DNA of 64,000 nt, taken from NCBI GenBank assembly GCA_009785345.1, contig WQWL01000005.1, positions 1 to 64,000 of the forward strand, in the 5' to 3' direction. Below, piece after piece: positions 6,274 through 40,022 of the stretch. This DNA comes from Oscillospiraceae bacterium (GTDB lineage: Bacteria > Bacillota > Clostridia > Oscillospirales > Oscillospiraceae). Both the position numbers and the translations under genes were made by a program. The notes below the pieces were generated by a model. The model searched no databases and had not been told where the DNA came from. It saw nothing but the letters and a program-made list of their open reading frames with translations. How positions within the stretch are numbered: the stretch's first letter is position 1; every line of letters starts with the position of its first letter.

Positions 6274-6609
6274 CTATAAATCTGTAAATACTTTACCACC
6301 AAGTAAATGAAAATGCAAATGAAACACAGTTTGTCCGCCACCAGCACCGGAGTTGGTTATTACACGAAAACCTTGATTGAGCCCTTCATTTTCAGCAATC
6401 ATGGCAATTGCTTCAAAGCATTTGGAAACAACTAAAGAATTTTCTGTAGTTAGTTCTGCGACAGAAATGATATGCTCTTTTGGCACAACAAGTATATGTA
6501 CAGGTGCTTGGGGCGAGATATCCCGAAATGCAAAGACATTATCATCTTCATAAACACATTTTGAGGGAATCTCTTTGGCTATTATTTTACAAAATAAACA
6601 GTCTGACAT
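6274..6609 (-). CDS. HIT family nucleotide-binding hydrolase (HinT-like)
   Basis: This 111-residue protein carries the histidine triad HLHFHLLGG near its C-terminus (about 97-105) and the opening CLFCKIIAKEIPSK typical of the HinT branch. Such enzymes hydrolyse nucleoside phosphoramidates and aminoacyl-adenylates. The CxxC pair in the opening may bind zinc, as in several bacterial homologues. GAGAAAGG precedes the ATG. It lies 102 bp downstream of alaS, the source of alanyl-adenylate, in the same orientation; the metabolic link is an inference. Length matches the family. Confidence 0.92.
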   Translation of the reverse strand: MSDCLFCKIIAKEIPSKCVYEDDNVFAFRDISPQAPVHILVVPKEHIISVAELTTENSLVVSKCFEAIAMIAENEGLNQGFRVITNSGAGGGQTVFHLHFHLLGGKVFTDL

Positions 6610-6711
6610 AAACCTTTCTCCACATATCTATATATAATTGCATGGTCAGCGTCGCTTTGATGCTAATGCTTTATTGCTTTAACTAACCTGTGCTCCTGCA
6701 CTAAACATAAT

Positions 6712-9345
6712 TCAACCCAGCCTTGTATTCACAATGCTTTCAACAAAATCAAGTGCAGAGCTAAGTTTGCTTGCATCTTTTGCTCCGCCCATAGCAAATT
6801 CTGGTTTACCGCCACCGGAACCACCACAAATTTTGGTGACCTCGCGGATAAGTTCTCCGGCTTTTACGCCACACTCTACAGCGGTTTTGCCACACGCAGC
6901 CATTATAGTTATCTTTTCATCGTTAATAGTGGCGAGTACAGAAACAACAGAAGCATCTATATCTCGAAGCGTATCTGAAAGTCCTCGCAGTTTATCAACT
7001 TCAGCATTATTAATTATTTTTGTGACAACGCTTAACTCTCCGACTTTTTTTGCATCAGCGAGCATTTGACGTGCGTCATCACCAGATTGTTTCGACTGTG
7101 CAGACTCCAACTTTGAACGAAGCTCTTTAAGAGTTGCCATGTTCTGTTCAAGTTTGCCGACAATATCATTTGGTGAATTAGCTTTAAGCATGCCGGAGAT
7201 TTCGGATAGTTGTTCGCGTGAAGAGTGGAGCATATCGAGAGTTGAGTATCCGGTGATTGCTTCAATTCTTCTTACGCCTGATGCAACAGAAAATTCTGAC
7301 AATATTGTGAAAGCACCAGTTTTGGCTGTACTATCAAGATGTATGCCACCACATAGCTCAATTGAATCACCCATTGTAATAACACGGACGATGTTTCCAT
7401 ACTTTTCGCCAAAGAGCGCAGTTGCACCCAATTTTTTAGCATCATCTATAAACATTTCGTTAGCAGAAACAGAATATCCATCTAAAACAGCTGTATTAAC
7501 ATACTGCTCGATTTCCGAGATTTCATCATCAGTTAGTGCAGAAAAATGTGTAAAGTCGAAACGCAACTTATCCGGCTCGACTAGTGACCCTGCTTGATTT
7601 ACATGATCACCAAGTACATTATGCAATGCTTTGTGCAAAAGATGCGTTGCAGTATGTGCACGCATTATTGCACGACGTCGAGGAACATCCACCTCTGCGT
7701 TTACAACATCATCGACAGAAAGTTCACCTGAAAACATTTTGCCATAATGCAAATCTTTGTCGCCATTGCTTAATTGCACATTAGTAACCAAAAATTTAGA
7801 ATCACCGAAGTTAAGTGAACCAAAGTCAGCGGATTGGCCGCCTTTTTCGGCATAGAATGGCGTTTTATCAAGCACAATGATTCCTTCATCACCTTCACGA
7901 ATTGATGAGGTTAGTTCGCCTTGATTTACTATTGCCAGGACACGACCGATATCACTAGTTTTATCGTAACCTGTAAACACGGTTGGAGTATTGTCGAGTC
8001 CTAACTCGATTCCTGCCCACGCTAAATCACCGAGAGCTTCTCGTGCTTTTCTGGCTCTGGTACGCTGTGCTTCCATATGTTCATTAAATGCGACCGTATC
8101 AACAGTGATTCCATGCTCAGACAACATATCAATTGTTAAGTCCAACGGGAATCCATATGTATCATAAAGTTTAAATGCATCTTCGCCGGAGAGTATGGAT
8201 GAGGCTTCTGCTTTTAGAGTATCGATAAGTGTATTGAGCATTGCAGTTCCGGCATCGATTGTTTTGTCAAAGCTTTCTTCTTCAACACCCATAACCCGCT
8301 TTATGAATTCAGCCTTATCTACCAGGTCAGGGTAGGCAGTTTTGTTTTGCTCAATAACAACATCACAGATTTTACATAGGAACTCATCTTTGATACCAAG
8401 AAGTCTGCCATGTCTTACTGCACGACGAAGTAAGCGACGTAGCACATAGCCGCGACCTTCGTTTGAGGGAAGGACGCCGTCGCAAATCATCATTGTTGAA
8501 GAACGTATGTGGTCGGTAATAATTCGGATTGAAACATCTGAATCTATATCTTTTCCAAAAGGAACGCCACTAACGTCTGAAACAGCATTTATAATACTGA
8601 CAACTGTATCGACTTCAAACAATCCATTTACACCTTGACAGGCTACAGCCAAACGTTCAAGCCCCATACCTGTGTCTATGTTCTTTTGTTTTAGCTCTGA
8701 ATAGTTGCCTGCACCATCATTGTCGAATTGCGTGAATACATTGTTCCATATTTCCATGAAACGATCACATTCACAGCCAGGTTCACAGTTAGCACTTCCA
8801 CAACCAAACTCTATGCCTCTGTCGTAATACACTTCAGAGCACGGTCCGCACGGTCCGCTTCCATGATCCCAAAAATTATCATCCTTGCCTAGTTTATAAA
8901 TGCGGTCAGGGGAAATACCTACGACGTTCTTCCATATTTCGAAAGCTTCGTCATCATCTACGTACACAGAAGGGTACAGCAAATCAGCATTCATGCCCAG
9001 ACGCTCTGTGAGGAATTCCCAACACCAAACTATTGCATCATGCTTAAAATAGTCGCCAAACGAGAAGTTGCCGAGCATTTCGAAGTACGTGCCATGTCGA
9101 GCGGTTTTGCCAACATGTTCAATATCGCCTGTGCGTATGCACTTTTGACTTGTGCAAACACGCTTGCGTGGTGGTTCTTGCTCTCCTGTAAACCATGTTT
9201 TCATTGGAGCCATACCGGAGTTAATCAAGAGAAGCGATGCGTCATTTTGTGGTATGAGCGAAAAACTGGGCAGACGTAAGTGCCCTTTTTCTTCGAAAAA
9301 AGCCAAAAAGAGCTCTCTTAATTCATTTAAACCGTAAGTACTCAA
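6712..9345 (-). CDS. alaS: Alanyl-tRNA synthetase
   Basis: This 877-residue class II synthetase charges tRNA-Ala. It shows the N-terminal catalytic core with INSGMAPMK and the CTSQKCIRTGDIEHVG segment, then the editing domain with HTATHLLHKAL and the distal zinc-site motif CGGIHLDST, and a C-terminal glycine-rich end (GGSGGGKPEFAMGG). The length is normal. The start appears to be a TTG placed immediately after the TAA stop of acpP (no gap), with a weak GGTGA about 6 bp upstream; no ATG near the expected N-terminus exists. Expression is therefore likely coupled to acpP translation. No T-box leader is visible between the two genes, which is unusual for a Bacillota synthetase but follows from its position inside an operon. 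Confidence 0.96.
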   Translation of the reverse strand: MSTYGLNELRELFLAFFEEKGHLRLPSFSLIPQNDASLLLINSGMAPMKTWFTGEQEPPRKRVCTSQKCIRTGDIEHVGKTARHGTYFEMLGNFSFGDYFKHDAIVWCWEFLTERLGMNADLLYPSVYVDDDEAFEIWKNVVGISPDRIYKLGKDDNFWDHGSGPCGPCSEVYYDRGIEFGCGSANCEPGCECDRFMEIWNNVFTQFDNDGAGNYSELKQKNIDTGMGLERLAVACQGVNGLFEVDTVVSIINAVSDVSGVPFGKDIDSDVSIRIITDHIRSSTMMICDGVLPSNEGRGYVLRRLLRRAVRHGRLLGIKDEFLCKICDVVIEQNKTAYPDLVDKAEFIKRVMGVEEESFDKTIDAGTAMLNTLIDTLKAEASSILSGEDAFKLYDTYGFPLDLTIDMLSEHGITVDTVAFNEHMEAQRTRARKAREALGDLAWAGIELGLDNTPTVFTGYDKTSDIGRVLAIVNQGELTSSIREGDEGIIVLDKTPFYAEKGGQSADFGSLNFGDSKFLVTNVQLSNGDKDLHYGKMFSGELSVDDVVNAEVDVPRRRAIMRAHTATHLLHKALHNVLGDHVNQAGSLVEPDKLRFDFTHFSALTDDEISEIEQYVNTAVLDGYSVSANEMFIDDAKKLGATALFGEKYGNIVRVITMGDSIELCGGIHLDSTAKTGAFTILSEFSVASGVRRIEAITGYSTLDMLHSSREQLSEISGMLKANSPNDIVGKLEQNMATLKELRSKLESAQSKQSGDDARQMLADAKKVGELSVVTKIINNAEVDKLRGLSDTLRDIDASVVSVLATINDEKITIMAACGKTAVECGVKAGELIREVTKICGGSGGGKPEFAMGGAKDASKLSSALDFVESIVNTRLG

Positions 9346-35553: not shown

Positions 35554-36532
35554 AGGTTTCCGAAAGGTATCTTAACCCCAACTGCTCACGTATAGTATCA
35601 CTTAACTCTGCAATCGCCAGTGTTTCTGCGTGAGTCATTAGGTTGCTTTCCTTTTTGCCTGCATGGATAGCTTCCATTACCGCAATAGCCTCATAATTAT
35701 ATCCATTGCCTTCTTTTTCAGTGAATGTAACAGGTTCTTCTCCATCAACTTTTAGTGTAGCACTGTCAGCACACCAAAAACCGTTAATATTTATACTTCC
35801 TCTTTCGCCAAAAACATTTAAAGTATGATATGTACTTGTTCGGACACCGCACGATAGTACAGCTATCTGCCCGCCACCATATTTAAGAAGCATAGCCGTC
35901 TGCTCATCAACTCCAGTCGCACCCATATCCCCAACGCTTGTAATAACATCAGGATTGTTGCCAAAAATCATGGTTGCCATGCTAAGTGTGTAACAACCAA
36001 CGTCAAGAAGACCACCACCACCTAGCTCTTTCTTTAGAAGACGTGATTCGGGATCAAAATCTGCGCGGAACGAAAAGTCGCAATGGATCATGCGGACATC
36101 ACCGATTTTGCCATTTTTTATCCAGCTCACAGTTTTACGAATTGCGGGAAGAAAGCGTGTCCAATGTGCTTCCATTATAAATACGCCCTTCTTCTGCGCA
36201 GCGTCAATCATTGCTTGAGCTTCTTTTTTATTCATTGCGAATGGCTTTTCACACAGTACATTCAACCCGTTATCTATGCAAAGTAAAGCAGCGTCGATAT
36301 GCATAGGATGTGGTGTGCTGATATACACACAATCGATTTCTTTGTCTTTGACCATTTCCTCATAGCTACCATAAGCCTTTGGGATATTGTATTTTTTTGC
36401 AAAATCGTCGGCTCTCTCTACATTACGTGAACCAACGGCATATAGTTCAGCGTCTGGTACGATCGTAAGATCGTCAGCAAATTTATTTGCTATGGCTCCG
36501 GGACCAAGAATAGCCCATTTAAATTTTGACAT
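35546..36532 (-). CDS. Gfo/Idh/MocA family NAD(P)-dependent oxidoreductase
   Basis: The 328-residue enzyme has a Rossmann domain starting AILGPGAIANKFADDL, the EKPFAMNKKEA motif (catalytic Lys in EKP) and a C-terminal alpha/beta domain with GGGGLLDVGCYTL. Members oxidise or reduce sugars, inositols or related compounds; this type resembles trans-1,2-dihydrobenzenediol or 1,5-anhydrofructose dehydrogenase-like members. The start is ATG 36532 with GGAGG 6 bp upstream. It is alone in its orientation here, so context does not show the substrate. Confidence 0.9.
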   Translation of the reverse strand: MSKFKWAILGPGAIANKFADDLTIVPDAELYAVGSRNVERADDFAKKYNIPKAYGSYEEMVKDKEIDCVYISTPHPMHIDAALLCIDNGLNVLCEKPFAMNKKEAQAMIDAAQKKGVFIMEAHWTRFLPAIRKTVSWIKNGKIGDVRMIHCDFSFRADFDPESRLLKKELGGGGLLDVGCYTLSMATMIFGNNPDVITSVGDMGATGVDEQTAMLLKYGGGQIAVLSCGVRTSTYHTLNVFGERGSININGFWCADSATLKVDGEEPVTFTEKEGNGYNYEAIAVMEAIHAGKKESNLMTHAETLAIAELSDTIREQLGLRYLSETSI

Positions 36533-36750
36533 ACATAACCTCCAAAAATAATTACTTAAAATGTAATATATACTGATGTTACTGATTTTAACATAAATAT
36601 TATGCATTTACACATTTTTAGTAGGTGCAATTTTTTTTGCAATCTTTGTTTTCATGATTTATAATTAACACATAGAAATTTTCTAAACACTAGCGGGTGC
36701 GTGGCAATCGGGTTTTCACGATTGCTGCACAGATTATACAAGGTGATACT

Positions 36751-37176
36751 ATGTCAGACAAACCAACAATTGAATTGATGCGAGCACTATCTAATTCTGA
36801 GAGCATCAACAGCTATATGGAACATAATAACCGTTTTTTGGTTGAAGGTGAGTTGTCAGAACACATCAATCGCCTTTGTGCAAAAAAGGGTCTTGTCAAA
36901 GCAAACGTAATTAGACGTGCCGAGATAAACGAAATATATGCTTATCAAATTTTTTCCGGAAAGCGTGTGCCTTCTAGAGATAAACTTCTTTGCCTGTGTC
37001 TTGGGATGGAACTTGATACGATAGAAACAAACCAGCTATTAAAATATGCCGGTTTTGCTCCCTTGTATCCTAAAAATAAGCGAGACAGTATTATTTTGTT
37101 CGGGTTTGAAAAAAGGCAAAGCATTATTGCAATCAATGAGACTCTGTACGATAACGATGAAAGCACATTAAACTAG
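36751..37176 (+). CDS. Helix-turn-helix protein paired with a Ser/Thr kinase
   Basis: The 141-residue protein contains a lambda-repressor-like helix-turn-helix in its second half: VEGELSEHINRLCAKKGLV, then NVIRRAEINEIYAYQIFSGK and RVPSRDKLLCLCLGMEL. It ends with TNQLLKYAGFAPLYPKNKRD and a helix near the C-terminus. From memory this layout recurs in Clostridia next to kinase genes; the function is not established, and it lacks features that would say which sites it binds. GGTGAT lies before the ATG. The kinase gene follows 94 bp later on the same strand. Confidence 0.75.
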   Translation: MSDKPTIELMRALSNSESINSYMEHNNRFLVEGELSEHINRLCAKKGLVKANVIRRAEINEIYAYQIFSGKRVPSRDKLLCLCLGMELDTIETNQLLKYAGFAPLYPKNKRDSIILFGFEKRQSIIAINETLYDNDESTLN

Positions 37177-37270
37177 TGGTCTGCGTCGTTTAAAATTTGC
37201 AAACCTTTAGAGAATACAGAACACTAGTGATTTGCTTCAATTTTTTACACAACGCGAGAAGGTGTGGTAT

Positions 37271-37984
37271 ATGAACGAATGGTTTTTCAATACGCTCAAC
37301 GAGCAATATAGCCTTGTTCGAATATGTAGCTCCGGCGACATGGGTGAAGTTTCGCAACTTCGTCACAAAATGCATGGACGCAACATCATCAAACGCGTTT
37401 ATCGTGGAACTGATAGTACCTATAAGATTTTGCATGCGCTCCCTCACCCCAACATCCCGAAAATCTATGAAGTCATTTTCGACAATGACACGGTTACAAT
37501 TCTAGAAGAATATATTGAAGGTCTCACGATTAGTGACATATTAGATAGTGGTTTATATAAAGAAAGCGGGGTCATCACTATTATCTCCTCCCTGTGTGAT
37601 GCTCTGGATATATTGCATGAAAATGGAATTGTGCATCGTGATATTAAGCCTGAAAATGTAATGATTGACAATAGTGGCATAGTGAAACTGATTGATTATA
37701 GTGCCGCAAAAATATACAAGCCACACAGATCACAAGACACTCAGGCTTTGGGAACCGCAGGTTATGCCGCTCCTGAGCAGTTTGGGATTGCACAATCTGA
37801 CAGACGTGTCGATATATATGCATTGGGCATACTAATGAACGTAATGTTAACAAAAGAATATCCGTCAAAGCTTTTTTATCAAGGGCGATTGACAAAAACT
37901 ATCGATAAATGTACGCAGCTTGATCCAAACAAACGTTATCAAAATGTCACAGAATTAAAGAATGACCTACCTAAAGAAATTTAA
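37271..37984 (+). CDS. Soluble Ser/Thr protein kinase (Hanks type, short N-lobe)
   Basis: The 237-residue protein is a single kinase domain without a membrane segment. The glycine loop is CSSGDMGEV, the beta-3 lysine is in NIIKRV, the catalytic loop is VHRDIKPENVM (Asp about 124), the metal motif is DYS in place of DFG, and the activation segment ends in GYAAPEQFG, then QSDRRVDIYALG. The stretch between the lysine and HPNIPKIYEV is only about 16 residues and has no clear helix-C glutamate, so the N-lobe is shortened. The key lysine and both aspartates remain, so activity is likely. It lies between an HTH gene and a zinc-ribbon/PepSY gene. Confidence 0.88.
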   Translation: MNEWFFNTLNEQYSLVRICSSGDMGEVSQLRHKMHGRNIIKRVYRGTDSTYKILHALPHPNIPKIYEVIFDNDTVTILEEYIEGLTISDILDSGLYKESGVITIISSLCDALDILHENGIVHRDIKPENVMIDNSGIVKLIDYSAAKIYKPHRSQDTQALGTAGYAAPEQFGIAQSDRRVDIYALGILMNVMLTKEYPSKLFYQGRLTKTIDKCTQLDPNKRYQNVTELKNDLPKEI

Positions 37985-38079
37985 TTTCGAATACTAAGCA
38001 GCCTGCATAGGACATCTGAGTTCACTTGCACTATACTGTTATTTGTCACAGCAAATAATAGTTAGGAGGATATCTTACA

Positions 38080-39156
38080 ATGAGGAAAAACAACAAAACT
38101 TCAAAACAAACACCTGGCATTGTGGAGCAAAGAGAATCAAAGCAAAGTAATGAGATAGCTGTAACAGGGGCAACAAAAAAGTGTCCATACTGTGGAGAAG
38201 ATTTACCGGTAAAAATTGCATTCTGTCTATATTGCATGAAATCTCTTGTAGGAGATACAGCACCGCAACCCGAAACAAAACAGCAAAACAATGGTGTTAA
38301 TCCTTTTCAGAAAAGATCGACAAAGGTTCTAATTGGAGCGGCGGCACTTCTTACTGTAGTTGCAATAGTCGCAGCTACATCATTCATCACAGCCTCCATC
38401 CTTTCTCGTCATACAGGTACACCACATCAACCAGCAATATCTGCAACTACAATGCCTCACGATGAAGTCGCCGTTTCGACTTTCATCCCTGAACCGACAC
38501 CTTTGCCAACACTACCATACAATCCAGAACCAACACCTACACCGTTACAAAACACAGAGCCAATGCAAATTCAACAAACCGACGCAAATATAACCGTCCC
38601 TTCCACCGTTACCCCAAGATTCCCTGCACAAGCCGGTGGTCCTGTTGATCCACCAATCTCCGCACAAAGAGCCACAGAGCTAGCTCGTGACCACCTCATA
38701 TCCATTGGCGTTACATCTGCAGCATTCGACTATATTTACATGGACAGGGAAAGCAACACATGGGTGTGGAGCGTCGAATTTGATGGACGTGGCAGAAGCT
38801 ATGAGTTTTATGTTGATGTGAACACAGGAGAATTTCTAAAATTTCCCAATGGAACAAATTCTGTTAACGTGGATCAATCCTCAGCTTCTTCAAGTTCCGG
38901 CACCAGTAGCAGCCAGCGTGGAAGCAGACCATCTAATCCGGCAATCTCACTAGAGCGTGCTATTGAAATCGGCTACGAAGAACTAGCAAGACGTGGGCAC
39001 ACAGGTACGTTCCGTAGCGATTCCGGTATCGATTGGGAGCATGGTCAGTGGGTATGGGAATTGTTATTCAGAGTGGAAGGTGGCAGATTGCCCTTAGTAG
39101 AGATGTATATAAATGTTGACACGGGAGCTGTTATTAAGTTTGAGTGGGATGATTAG
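38080..39156 (+). CDS. Zinc-ribbon membrane protein with two extracytoplasmic PepSY-like domains
   Basis: The 358-residue product starts with a cytoplasmic zinc ribbon (CPYCGEDLPVKIAFCLYC, about 31-48), then one membrane segment (about 86-108), a Pro/Thr-rich linker (about 120-190), and two PepSY-like domains. The first runs from ISAQRATELARDHL to DVNTGEFLKF, the second from ISLERAIEIGYEEL to NVDTGAVIKFEWDD, joined by a Ser/Gly linker. PepSY domains often inhibit peptidases or sense peptides. It follows the kinase by 95 bp, so the ribbon side could be a kinase contact; this is inference. GGAGG precedes the ATG. Confidence 0.8.
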   Translation: MRKNNKTSKQTPGIVEQRESKQSNEIAVTGATKKCPYCGEDLPVKIAFCLYCMKSLVGDTAPQPETKQQNNGVNPFQKRSTKVLIGAAALLTVVAIVAATSFITASILSRHTGTPHQPAISATTMPHDEVAVSTFIPEPTPLPTLPYNPEPTPTPLQNTEPMQIQQTDANITVPSTVTPRFPAQAGGPVDPPISAQRATELARDHLISIGVTSAAFDYIYMDRESNTWVWSVEFDGRGRSYEFYVDVNTGEFLKFPNGTNSVNVDQSSASSSSGTSSSQRGSRPSNPAISLERAIEIGYEELARRGHTGTFRSDSGIDWEHGQWVWELLFRVEGGRLPLVEMYINVDTGAVIKFEWDD

Positions 39157-39252
39157 AGGAGCGTCCTCGTAGGATTTGAAATATTGCAGAAACATTCGCA
39201 CAATAATGAATGTCTTTCTTAAAGTTAAATATTTATAGAAAAATATAAAGCA

Positions 39253-39285
39253 GTATGGTACAATATGTCAATATTTGTACCATAC
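39253..39285. promoter_or_regulatory. Perfect 11-bp inverted repeat over the promoter region of the next gene
   Basis: GTATGGTACAA (39253-39263) and TTGTACCATAC (39275-39285) form a perfect inverted repeat with 11 bp between. A -10-like TACAAT lies in the left arm and the ribosome binding site AAGGAG of the unknown gene follows 8 bp after the right arm. It reads as an operator or a leader hairpin. Confidence 0.65.
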
Positions 39286-39305
39286 AAACTTAAAGGAGAC
39301 AATAC

Positions 39306-40022
39306 ATGAAAGCACCAATGAAAATAGTACGAACCAAGATGGTTGAATTAAACTGTGGCAATTTTGGAGCCTACAAATACAAGCTAGCAAAAGGCGGCTC
39401 TGCAATTCGACTTGTAGATTTGGAAACACAAGAGGTTTACTCTTTTACAAAAGATAAGCGCTCTGGCAGACCGGTCGCATACGGACCATCTGCAAAGTTT
39501 AAAAATCTTGACTATATGCCACTATATGAAGAAGCTGTACTGAAGCTAAAAAGTGTTAAATTCGGCAGTAGAGGAATTGTTAAGAATGATACAACAGATT
39601 CTTGTGGTAATATTACTGTAGGCAATGCTGTTGACCTGGGTACCGGAGAGCAAATCACTACAGATATTGAAAGCGATCTCGAGGTCATGGGCGATGCACA
39701 TGATACACCGGATTATGATTTTATCATTAGTGAATATGGCATAGGCGGAAAAATTCAACGGGCATCAGTTAATCGTTTGAATCGCGAGCTTATACAAAGC
39801 ATACCAAAGAATCGTGCAATACTTGACCTCGTAAACCAGAAAGGTGTCACGTCCTCTGAAGTTGCGTTCAATCTTTTCTTCAAACATATTGGTCGTCTGG
39901 AGCGGAATATCCAAGAACAGGACGCCAGAGCTATATTGGAAGCCCTGAATATTGACTATGGTCGCAACATTTTGAAAGAGCTGATTGTTCAGATCCGCAA
40001 ATTCAAGGCTCGCCGGAAATAA
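39306..40022 (+). CDS. Unrecognised 238-residue cytoplasmic protein
   Basis: I do not recognise this protein. It has no signal peptide or membrane segment. The N-terminal half (about 1-105) looks beta-rich, with ELNCGNFGAYKYKLAKGGSA and several short strands; the C-terminal half (about 150-238) is helical and basic, ending in VQIRKFKARRK. AAGGAG lies 7 bp before the ATG. The gene is preceded by a perfect palindrome and followed by ylmH after 63 bp. A nucleic-acid-binding role is possible from the basic end but unproven. Confidence 0.65.
   Translation: MKAPMKIVRTKMVELNCGNFGAYKYKLAKGGSAIRLVDLETQEVYSFTKDKRSGRPVAYGPSAKFKNLDYMPLYEEAVLKLKSVKFGSRGIVKNDTTDSCGNITVGNAVDLGTGEQITTDIESDLEVMGDAHDTPDYDFIISEYGIGGKIQRASVNRLNRELIQSIPKNRAILDLVNQKGVTSSEVAFNLFFKHIGRLERNIQEQDARAILEALNIDYGRNILKELIVQIRKFKARRK

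Follow-up and report, generated by a model that had tools for sequence, protein, structure and literature searches.

An XRE-type protein, an atypical Hanks-type kinase and a zinc-ribbon membrane protein: a probable split receptor kinase with a dedicated transcription factor

Introduction

Three genes that follow one another at 36751-39156 of the DNA analysed here (a stretch of 64,000 nt, called the window) encode a small HTH protein, a soluble kinase and a zinc-ribbon membrane protein. They raise the question of whether the three products make up one signalling system and, if so, how a cue outside the cell would reach the DNA through them. The Hanks-type kinases of Bacillota have been studied mostly as pleiotropic PASTA kinases. 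A preliminary description of this DNA had proposed a route from an outside peptide or wall cue, through the ribbon protein and the kinase, to DNA.

Results

Three co-oriented genes

The ORF list of the window placed all three ORFs on the + strand, in agreement with the co-oriented trio of the preliminary description. The first (36751-37176, +) encodes an XRE-type HTH protein of 141 aa, recognised from the ORF, family conservation and an AlphaFold model. The second (37271-37984, +) encodes a soluble Hanks-type Ser/Thr kinase of 237 aa, recognised by the Pkinase profile, AlphaFold and fold match. The third (38080-39156, +; ORF, Pfam) encodes a sensor protein of 358 aa, here called ZRP, that has a cytosolic CxxC-FCxxCM ribbon, one TM segment, a Pro/Thr-rich stalk and two outside PepSY domains. 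When the relatives were compared, all three genes were conserved well beyond chance level. An Rfam search of 36400-39400 gave no match. A 238-aa ORF lies 3' of ZRP (39306-40022), and no Pfam, PADLOC or NCBIfam match was observed for it.

Linkage of the genes across relatives

In 60 relatives, we observed that the ~140-aa HTH gene has a kinase beside it nearly everywhere it occurs. A genome-wide scan with the HTH alignment gave 80 loci, from Clostridia and Listeria, most of the genomes compared being MAGs. Of 88 non-redundant loci, 81 have a kinase of the family no more than 4.5 kb from the HTH gene, and in 65 the distance is at most 400 bp; several of the seven loci with no nearby kinase are interrupted by contig ends. 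Since the window's own genome has 7 kinases per 3.5 Mb, adjacency by chance would be about 1%. The pair was retained also in loci where the HTH and kinase genes diverge. Occurrence of the genes apart in most relatives, which had been named beforehand as the observation that would count against a common system, was not what these neighbourhoods revealed.

The kinases of the family have two architectures. The one-piece kinases carry their own TM, with an LRR ectodomain or (in Listeria) three C-terminal TMs, and no dedicated ribbon gene. A gene for a ribbon, one TM and an ectodomain was found within 3 kb of 36 of the 40 TM-less kinases, while none of the 41 TM kinases had one. As for the other four soluble kinases, two belong to the TM clade, one has a ribbon 4 kb off, and one has a three-TM ribbon protein. 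In the kinase tree, the TM-less kinases form one clade of 38 rows with a support of 91, the exceptions being L108 and L128 in the TM clade. The tree indicates that the split form arose about once, so that 36/40 against 0/41 does not represent 77 independent observations, and the Fisher p of 7e-19 for this contrast is not taken as a probability. Judged from the sequences, the HTH protein and the kinase constitute a wider family and the trio is one variant of it, many of the kinases having a membrane segment of their own and needing no ribbon protein.

The informative point is that the split form survives in at least six different gene orders and orientations. Three are HTH-KIN-ZRP (as in the window), HTH-ZRP-KIN and ZRP-HTH-KIN. 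In two more, KIN and HTH diverge, and ZRP either comes after KIN or faces HTH. In another, KIN is found upstream of an HTH-ZRP pair. We also carried out the reverse test, in which the ribbon signature was used as a DNA pattern in 391 genomes of the class, 245 of the order and two small families. All 13 true matches were found to adjoin or sit inside a TM-less family kinase, and 12 of the 13 also adjoin an HTH gene (L154 and L158, which are not ribbon-TM genes, were left out of the true matches). In two cases, the ribbon is fused to the N-terminus of the kinase in a single ORF, which speaks directly for ribbon and kinase working together. These fusion ORFs (L151:4393-5271, -; L152:5763-6635, +) have no TM, and the HTH gene is adjacent.

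Two other loci showed additional features. At L066 (4885-10091), the HTH/kinase pair has beside it a further kinase, which is polytopic, together with a PP2C-like protein and a small WXG100-like one; this suggests a secretion-related kinase cluster. At L048, an ORF at 6525-6971 joins a UvrB-like start to an SGNH-like end, and repeats the SGNH gene of 1099-1821 across the kinase/HTH/ZRP stretch; this is possibly an insertion footprint.

The sensor protein and its zinc ribbon

The Pfam search matched ZRP to PepSY (PF03413) in two stretches with an E of 2.8e-14, and also gave a weak zinc-ribbon match. The ribbon, CPYCGEDLPVKIAFCLYCM (residues 35-53; 38182-38238, +), was assigned from the signature CPxC-x8-FCxxCM, the cysteines being C35, C38, C49 and C52. 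The TM segment falls at about residues 79-104 (38314-38391, +), called by hydropathy only, as were all TMs in this study. The QKRSTK that precedes it would place the N-terminus inside and the C-terminus outside by the positive-inside rule. The first PepSY domain covers residues 192-254 (38653-38841, +; Pfam). The second, at about residues 287-356 (38938-39147, +), corresponds to the second Pfam stretch, its limits being set by analogy with the sensor protein of L045, which has one PepSY, at 187-252. The Pfam matches and the predicted topology together uphold the plan given in the preliminary description, with a cytoplasmic ribbon and two PepSY domains outside.

The last Cys of the signature is followed by Met in 33 of 34 family members, whereas in the unrelated ribbons encoded in these neighbourhoods this position is Gly. 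The ribbon-TM part is constant, while the outside domain is swapped; LRR_5 was seen in 8 of the 34, PepSY in 2 and DUF6273 in 2, and most had no assigned domain. At L064, a PepSY occurs in a ribbon-less TM protein with no kinase or HTH. As the outside domain is freely exchanged among relatives, the peptide or wall cue suggested earlier could not be supported.

The kinase

The window kinase matched the Pkinase profile with an E of 1e-36. Its AlphaFold model, made on the family alignment, had the Hanks fold (pLDDT 91.6), with PknB 5u94 as the top PDB fold match (E 1.5e-19). At 237 aa, with no TM and an NCBIfam PknB_PASTA_kin score of 136.5 bits against a cut-off of 450, it is not a PASTA kinase.

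The alignment agreed with two peculiarities that had been pointed out before, the shortened helix-C region and the DYS at the DFG position (37694-37702, +). The segment from beta3 to helix C was ~12 residues shorter than in a PrkC-like kinase of the same genome. The alignment also showed a feature that had been overlooked, namely that the VAIK Lys of beta3 is replaced by Arg42 (37394-37396, +). This placement is supported by the nearest relative, which has a Gln preceding that Arg. The Glu of helix C is absent as well. The HRD Asp (HRD, 37634-37642, +), the catalytic Asn and the DFG Asp are all present.

Across the family, the HRD Asp and the DFG Asp were found in 81 of 81 kinases. In the ribbon clade, both were seen in 40/40 and the catalytic Asn in 39/40. 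The VAIK Lys was present in only 10 of these 40 (Arg in 18, His in 7 and Leu in 3 others), in comparison to 37 of 41 TM kinases. The DFG Gly was missing from 38 of the 40 and retained in 2, and the helix C Glu was also lost there. By its alignment, the window kinase, lacking the VAIK Lys, helix C Glu and DFG Gly, is to be classed as an atypical Hanks-type Ser/Thr kinase. Because the beta3 Lys, DFG Gly and helix C Glu are lost, catalysis by the ribbon-clade kinases is uncertain. Either the ribbon or the HTH protein would complete the active site, or the kinase would act as a nucleotide-binding relay. We rank phosphotransfer ahead of a relay, since the catalytic Asp residues of the C-lobe are kept without exception.

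The HTH protein and its N-terminal threonine

The Pfam match of the HTH protein to HTH_31 was weak (E 0.15). Despite this, its AlphaFold model on the family alignment was an all-helical XRE fold with a pLDDT of 94, confirming the small HTH protein of the preliminary description. The best Foldseek matches in the PDB were XRE repressors, e.g. DdrO and C.Esp1396I (prob 1.00, E at least 0.02). In the model, helices are formed by residues 6-15, 19-29, 35-45, 50-57, 61-69, 76-85, 90-99, 110-120 and 125-134. AlphaFold and Foldseek agree on the five-helix HTH core of XRE-type regulators, to which the model adds a two-helix extension at each end, N-terminal and C-terminal. The predicted recognition helix consists of residues 61-69 (EIYAYQIFS; 36931-36957, +), based on the model and on the covariation of Glu61 described below.

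Thr6 (codon at 36766-36768, +) is the sole invariant residue of the N-terminal extension. It is Thr in 82 of the 82 sequences that reach this column, the alignment rows without it being miscalled starts, contig ends and the kinase-less L057, and the flanking positions 5 and 7 are variable. DSSP starts the first helix at residue 6, which makes residue 5 the N-cap; a cap role alone would not require Thr. The extension with Thr6 is missing from proteins in which a macro domain is fused to the same type of HTH core (L060:4992-6017 and L062:4218-5330). We consider Thr6, invariant across the family, a candidate phosphorylation site of the kinase.

A putative operator and promoter

When inverted repeats were counted upstream of the HTH genes, TAWGC-N5-GCWTA was commoner than in shuffles. 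It was enriched 23-fold, with 60 sites in 243 kb near the genes against 8 in 743 kb of flanks; these counts are lower bounds, as the consensus was demanded exactly. Of the 116 half-sites of the palindrome, 37 have a TATAAT-like hexamer at an offset of 37, which is the peak (9 at 38 and at most 5 elsewhere), and 45 of 58 palindrome sites have such a hexamer on at least one side. A palindrome at a fixed distance from the -10 indicates an operator that overlaps with the -35.

In the window, the putative operator TAAGC-AGCCT-GCATA (37995-38009) is an exact consensus match, and the putative sensor-gene promoter AGGACA - 17 bp - TATACT (38009-38037, +; 9/12 matches) overlaps it with its -35. The same arrangement is conserved in L045. 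The poor -35 under the operator and the exact 17-bp spacing would fit a class-II activator, with a repressor as the alternative. The operator of the window is at the sensor promoter, with none upstream of the HTH gene, and an exact operator is missing from roughly half of the loci. The 3.5-Mb genome contains two copies of the extended form CTAWGCN5GCWTAG; the second is inside a recX-like coding frame, which leaves one non-coding site. In the relatives, the promoter leads to surface genes. Listeria has a DUF5067 lipoprotein gene there, and Massiliimalia the gene of a tRNA_anti-like membrane protein; in Ruminococcus and other Clostridia, the products are LRR_5/dockerin/cohesin or fn3 proteins.

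Over 34 non-redundant loci, a sample from few clades, the base outside the palindrome covaried best with residue 61 of the HTH protein (z 7.3, the top of all columns). Arg at this residue goes with G in 5 of 5, and Glu or Asp with C in 20 of 21. Residue 61 is the first of the predicted recognition helix, and the pairing is the chemistry expected of a direct contact. Since the outer base covaries with this residue, the HTH protein very probably binds the palindrome. Comparison of the sequences thus ties an operator-promoter to these loci.

Other candidate sites were set aside. A further exact copy of the palindrome at 37817-37831 lies within kinase codons (DIYALGIL) and was judged a coding coincidence. 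Immediately upstream of the window's HTH gene there is no consensus site, and the imperfect GCAATCG repeat there is missing in L045. We also considered whether the palindrome is a plain terminator, as a T run is present in the Listeria copies; however, a -10 at the fixed distance accompanies most copies, and the arm sequences are conserved.

In five Listeria loci (L103, L104, L109, L114, L119), which have a one-piece kinase and a divergent HTH gene, the palindrome reads AGTCCTATGC-N5-GCATAGGACT, the arms being up to 10 bp long, and a -10 precedes the DUF5067 lipoprotein gene. At L076 (near 5204), L067 (near 5204), L091 (near 5212) and L101 (near 4869), the operator-promoter comes after the kinase gene. 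Here a strong hairpin, of -20 to -26 kcal/mol (z -6.9 to -10.8), has the -10 TATAAT within its loop; it looks like the terminator of the kinase gene, interleaved with the promoter.

Discussion

Linkage, the ribbon-kinase fusion and the putative operator at the sensor promoter lend good support to the earlier proposal that all three genes belong to a single system with DNA as its end point. We propose that the trio is probably a receptor Ser/Thr kinase in split form that has a transcription factor of its own. ZRP would span the membrane and read the cue with its outside part, which is exchangeable and in the window consists of two PepSY domains, while its cytosolic zinc ribbon would bind the soluble kinase. 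ZRP would thus do in trans what the TM and ectodomain do in cis for the one-piece kinases of the family. The target of the kinase would be its HTH partner, and phosphorylation of Thr6, in the N-terminal extension, is the most likely mode of action. We infer that an HTH dimer binds TAWGC-N5-GCWTA, which overlaps the -35 of a promoter whose -10 is good. The dimer would thereby control, by activation or repression, the sensor gene here and nearby surface-protein genes in the relatives.

Pseudokinases usually lose the HRD Asp, the DFG Asp and the catalytic Asn. It is rather unlikely, though conceivable from the loss of the VAIK Lys, DFG Gly and helix C Glu in the ribbon clade, that the kinase is such a switch, which binds nucleotide and relays a conformation, or serves as an anti-factor holding the HTH protein until the sensor ribbon captures it. 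In this clade, the very residues that pseudokinases lose are kept (the Asn with one exception), and Thr6 is invariant in both kinase clades. Hanks kinases are often pleiotropic, and the HTH protein might control only the expression of the kinase/sensor cluster, with the kinase signalling to other substrates (e.g. envelope enzymes) and not to the HTH protein. The operator at the cluster genes and the single non-coding site of the extended form are in line with this, but we consider it unlikely, since the extension with the invariant Thr is a feature of kinase-linked HTH proteins, missing from the macro-fused ones and the kinase-less L057, and the pair is kept even when divergently transcribed.

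An anti-phage defence or selfish module is very improbable. The distribution is patchy, and a PADLOC search matched the kinase to kinase models, e.g. those of PD-T4-6 and MAD6; however, these matches are of a generic kinase domain, the HTH protein and ZRP match no PADLOC model, and in system partners and length the trio does not belong to PD-T4-6 or MAD6. The exchangeable ectodomains and the regulated surface proteins favour environmental sensing instead. That the genes are chance neighbours is hardly credible, being refuted by the linkage in 81/88 loci and by the reverse test, 13/13.

The split receptor kinase with its own transcription factor thus remains our preferred reading. Apparently, the trio in this gut bacterium is a real and recurrent signalling set, with relatives across Clostridia and Listeria, that has remained undescribed; like the preliminary description, we found no account of it as a system in the openly accessible papers. 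As read from these sequences, it is Hanks-kinase signalling of unusual design, with a receptor split through a zinc ribbon and a concrete putative operator. The kinases of this family come with a DNA-binding partner of their own, exchangeable sensors, and candidates for the phosphosite and the operator, which makes the path from cue to promoter directly testable, also in the Listeria relatives with the one-piece form. A zinc ribbon as adaptor between sensor and kinase would be, within the literature searched, an undescribed design of bacterial receptor kinase.

Comparison with known systems

The PASTA kinases (PrkC/PknB/Stk1) with ReoM/IreB share the Hanks fold with the window kinase, which differs from them in lacking PASTA domains, a TM and the VAIK Lys, and in its shortened helix C region. 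ReoM is phosphorylated by PrkA at Thr7 in its N-terminal tail (PMC7286690), a precedent for an N-terminal Thr as target of a Hanks kinase. Thr6 of the HTH protein is reminiscent of this Thr7, although the partner here, unlike ReoM, is an XRE DNA-binding protein. PknH-EmbR is another dedicated pair of Hanks kinase and transcription factor. Its kinase PknH is one-piece and its regulator EmbR combines an FHA domain with a winged helix, whereas here an XRE protein goes with a split receptor.

In Listeria monocytogenes, an in-frame deletion mutant of Lmo0618, made in one screen, grew less inside Caco-2 cells (PMC3091722). Lmo0618 seems to be the Listeria member of the HTH-linked kinase family, to which its relatives in the genus (L103, 380 aa) belong; the link is by length, chromosomal place and genus. 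Unlike the window, these relatives have a one-piece kinase with three C-terminal TMs, no ribbon protein, and an operator-promoter before the DUF5067 lipoprotein. In animals, soluble kinases are held by TM receptors, Lck by CD4 through a zinc clasp and JAK by its receptors. The likeness, a soluble kinase held via a small cytosolic element (here cysteine-rich), is an analogy only, as there is no homology and the ribbon is a self-contained CxxC...CxxC fold.

The trio resembles two-component systems in its exchangeable sensor, kinase, DNA-binding output and linked genes, but consists of a Hanks kinase and an XRE protein, without a His kinase and receiver. As a more speculative and somewhat doubtful extension, it may belong to a general three-part signalling class of Bacillota parallel to the two-component systems. 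Its sensors would be exchangeable ribbon-TM proteins, and its atypical Hanks kinase would have a degenerate N-lobe that the ribbon completes or switches, the ribbon being an allosteric activator beyond a tether; the XRE factor would have an operator code of its own.
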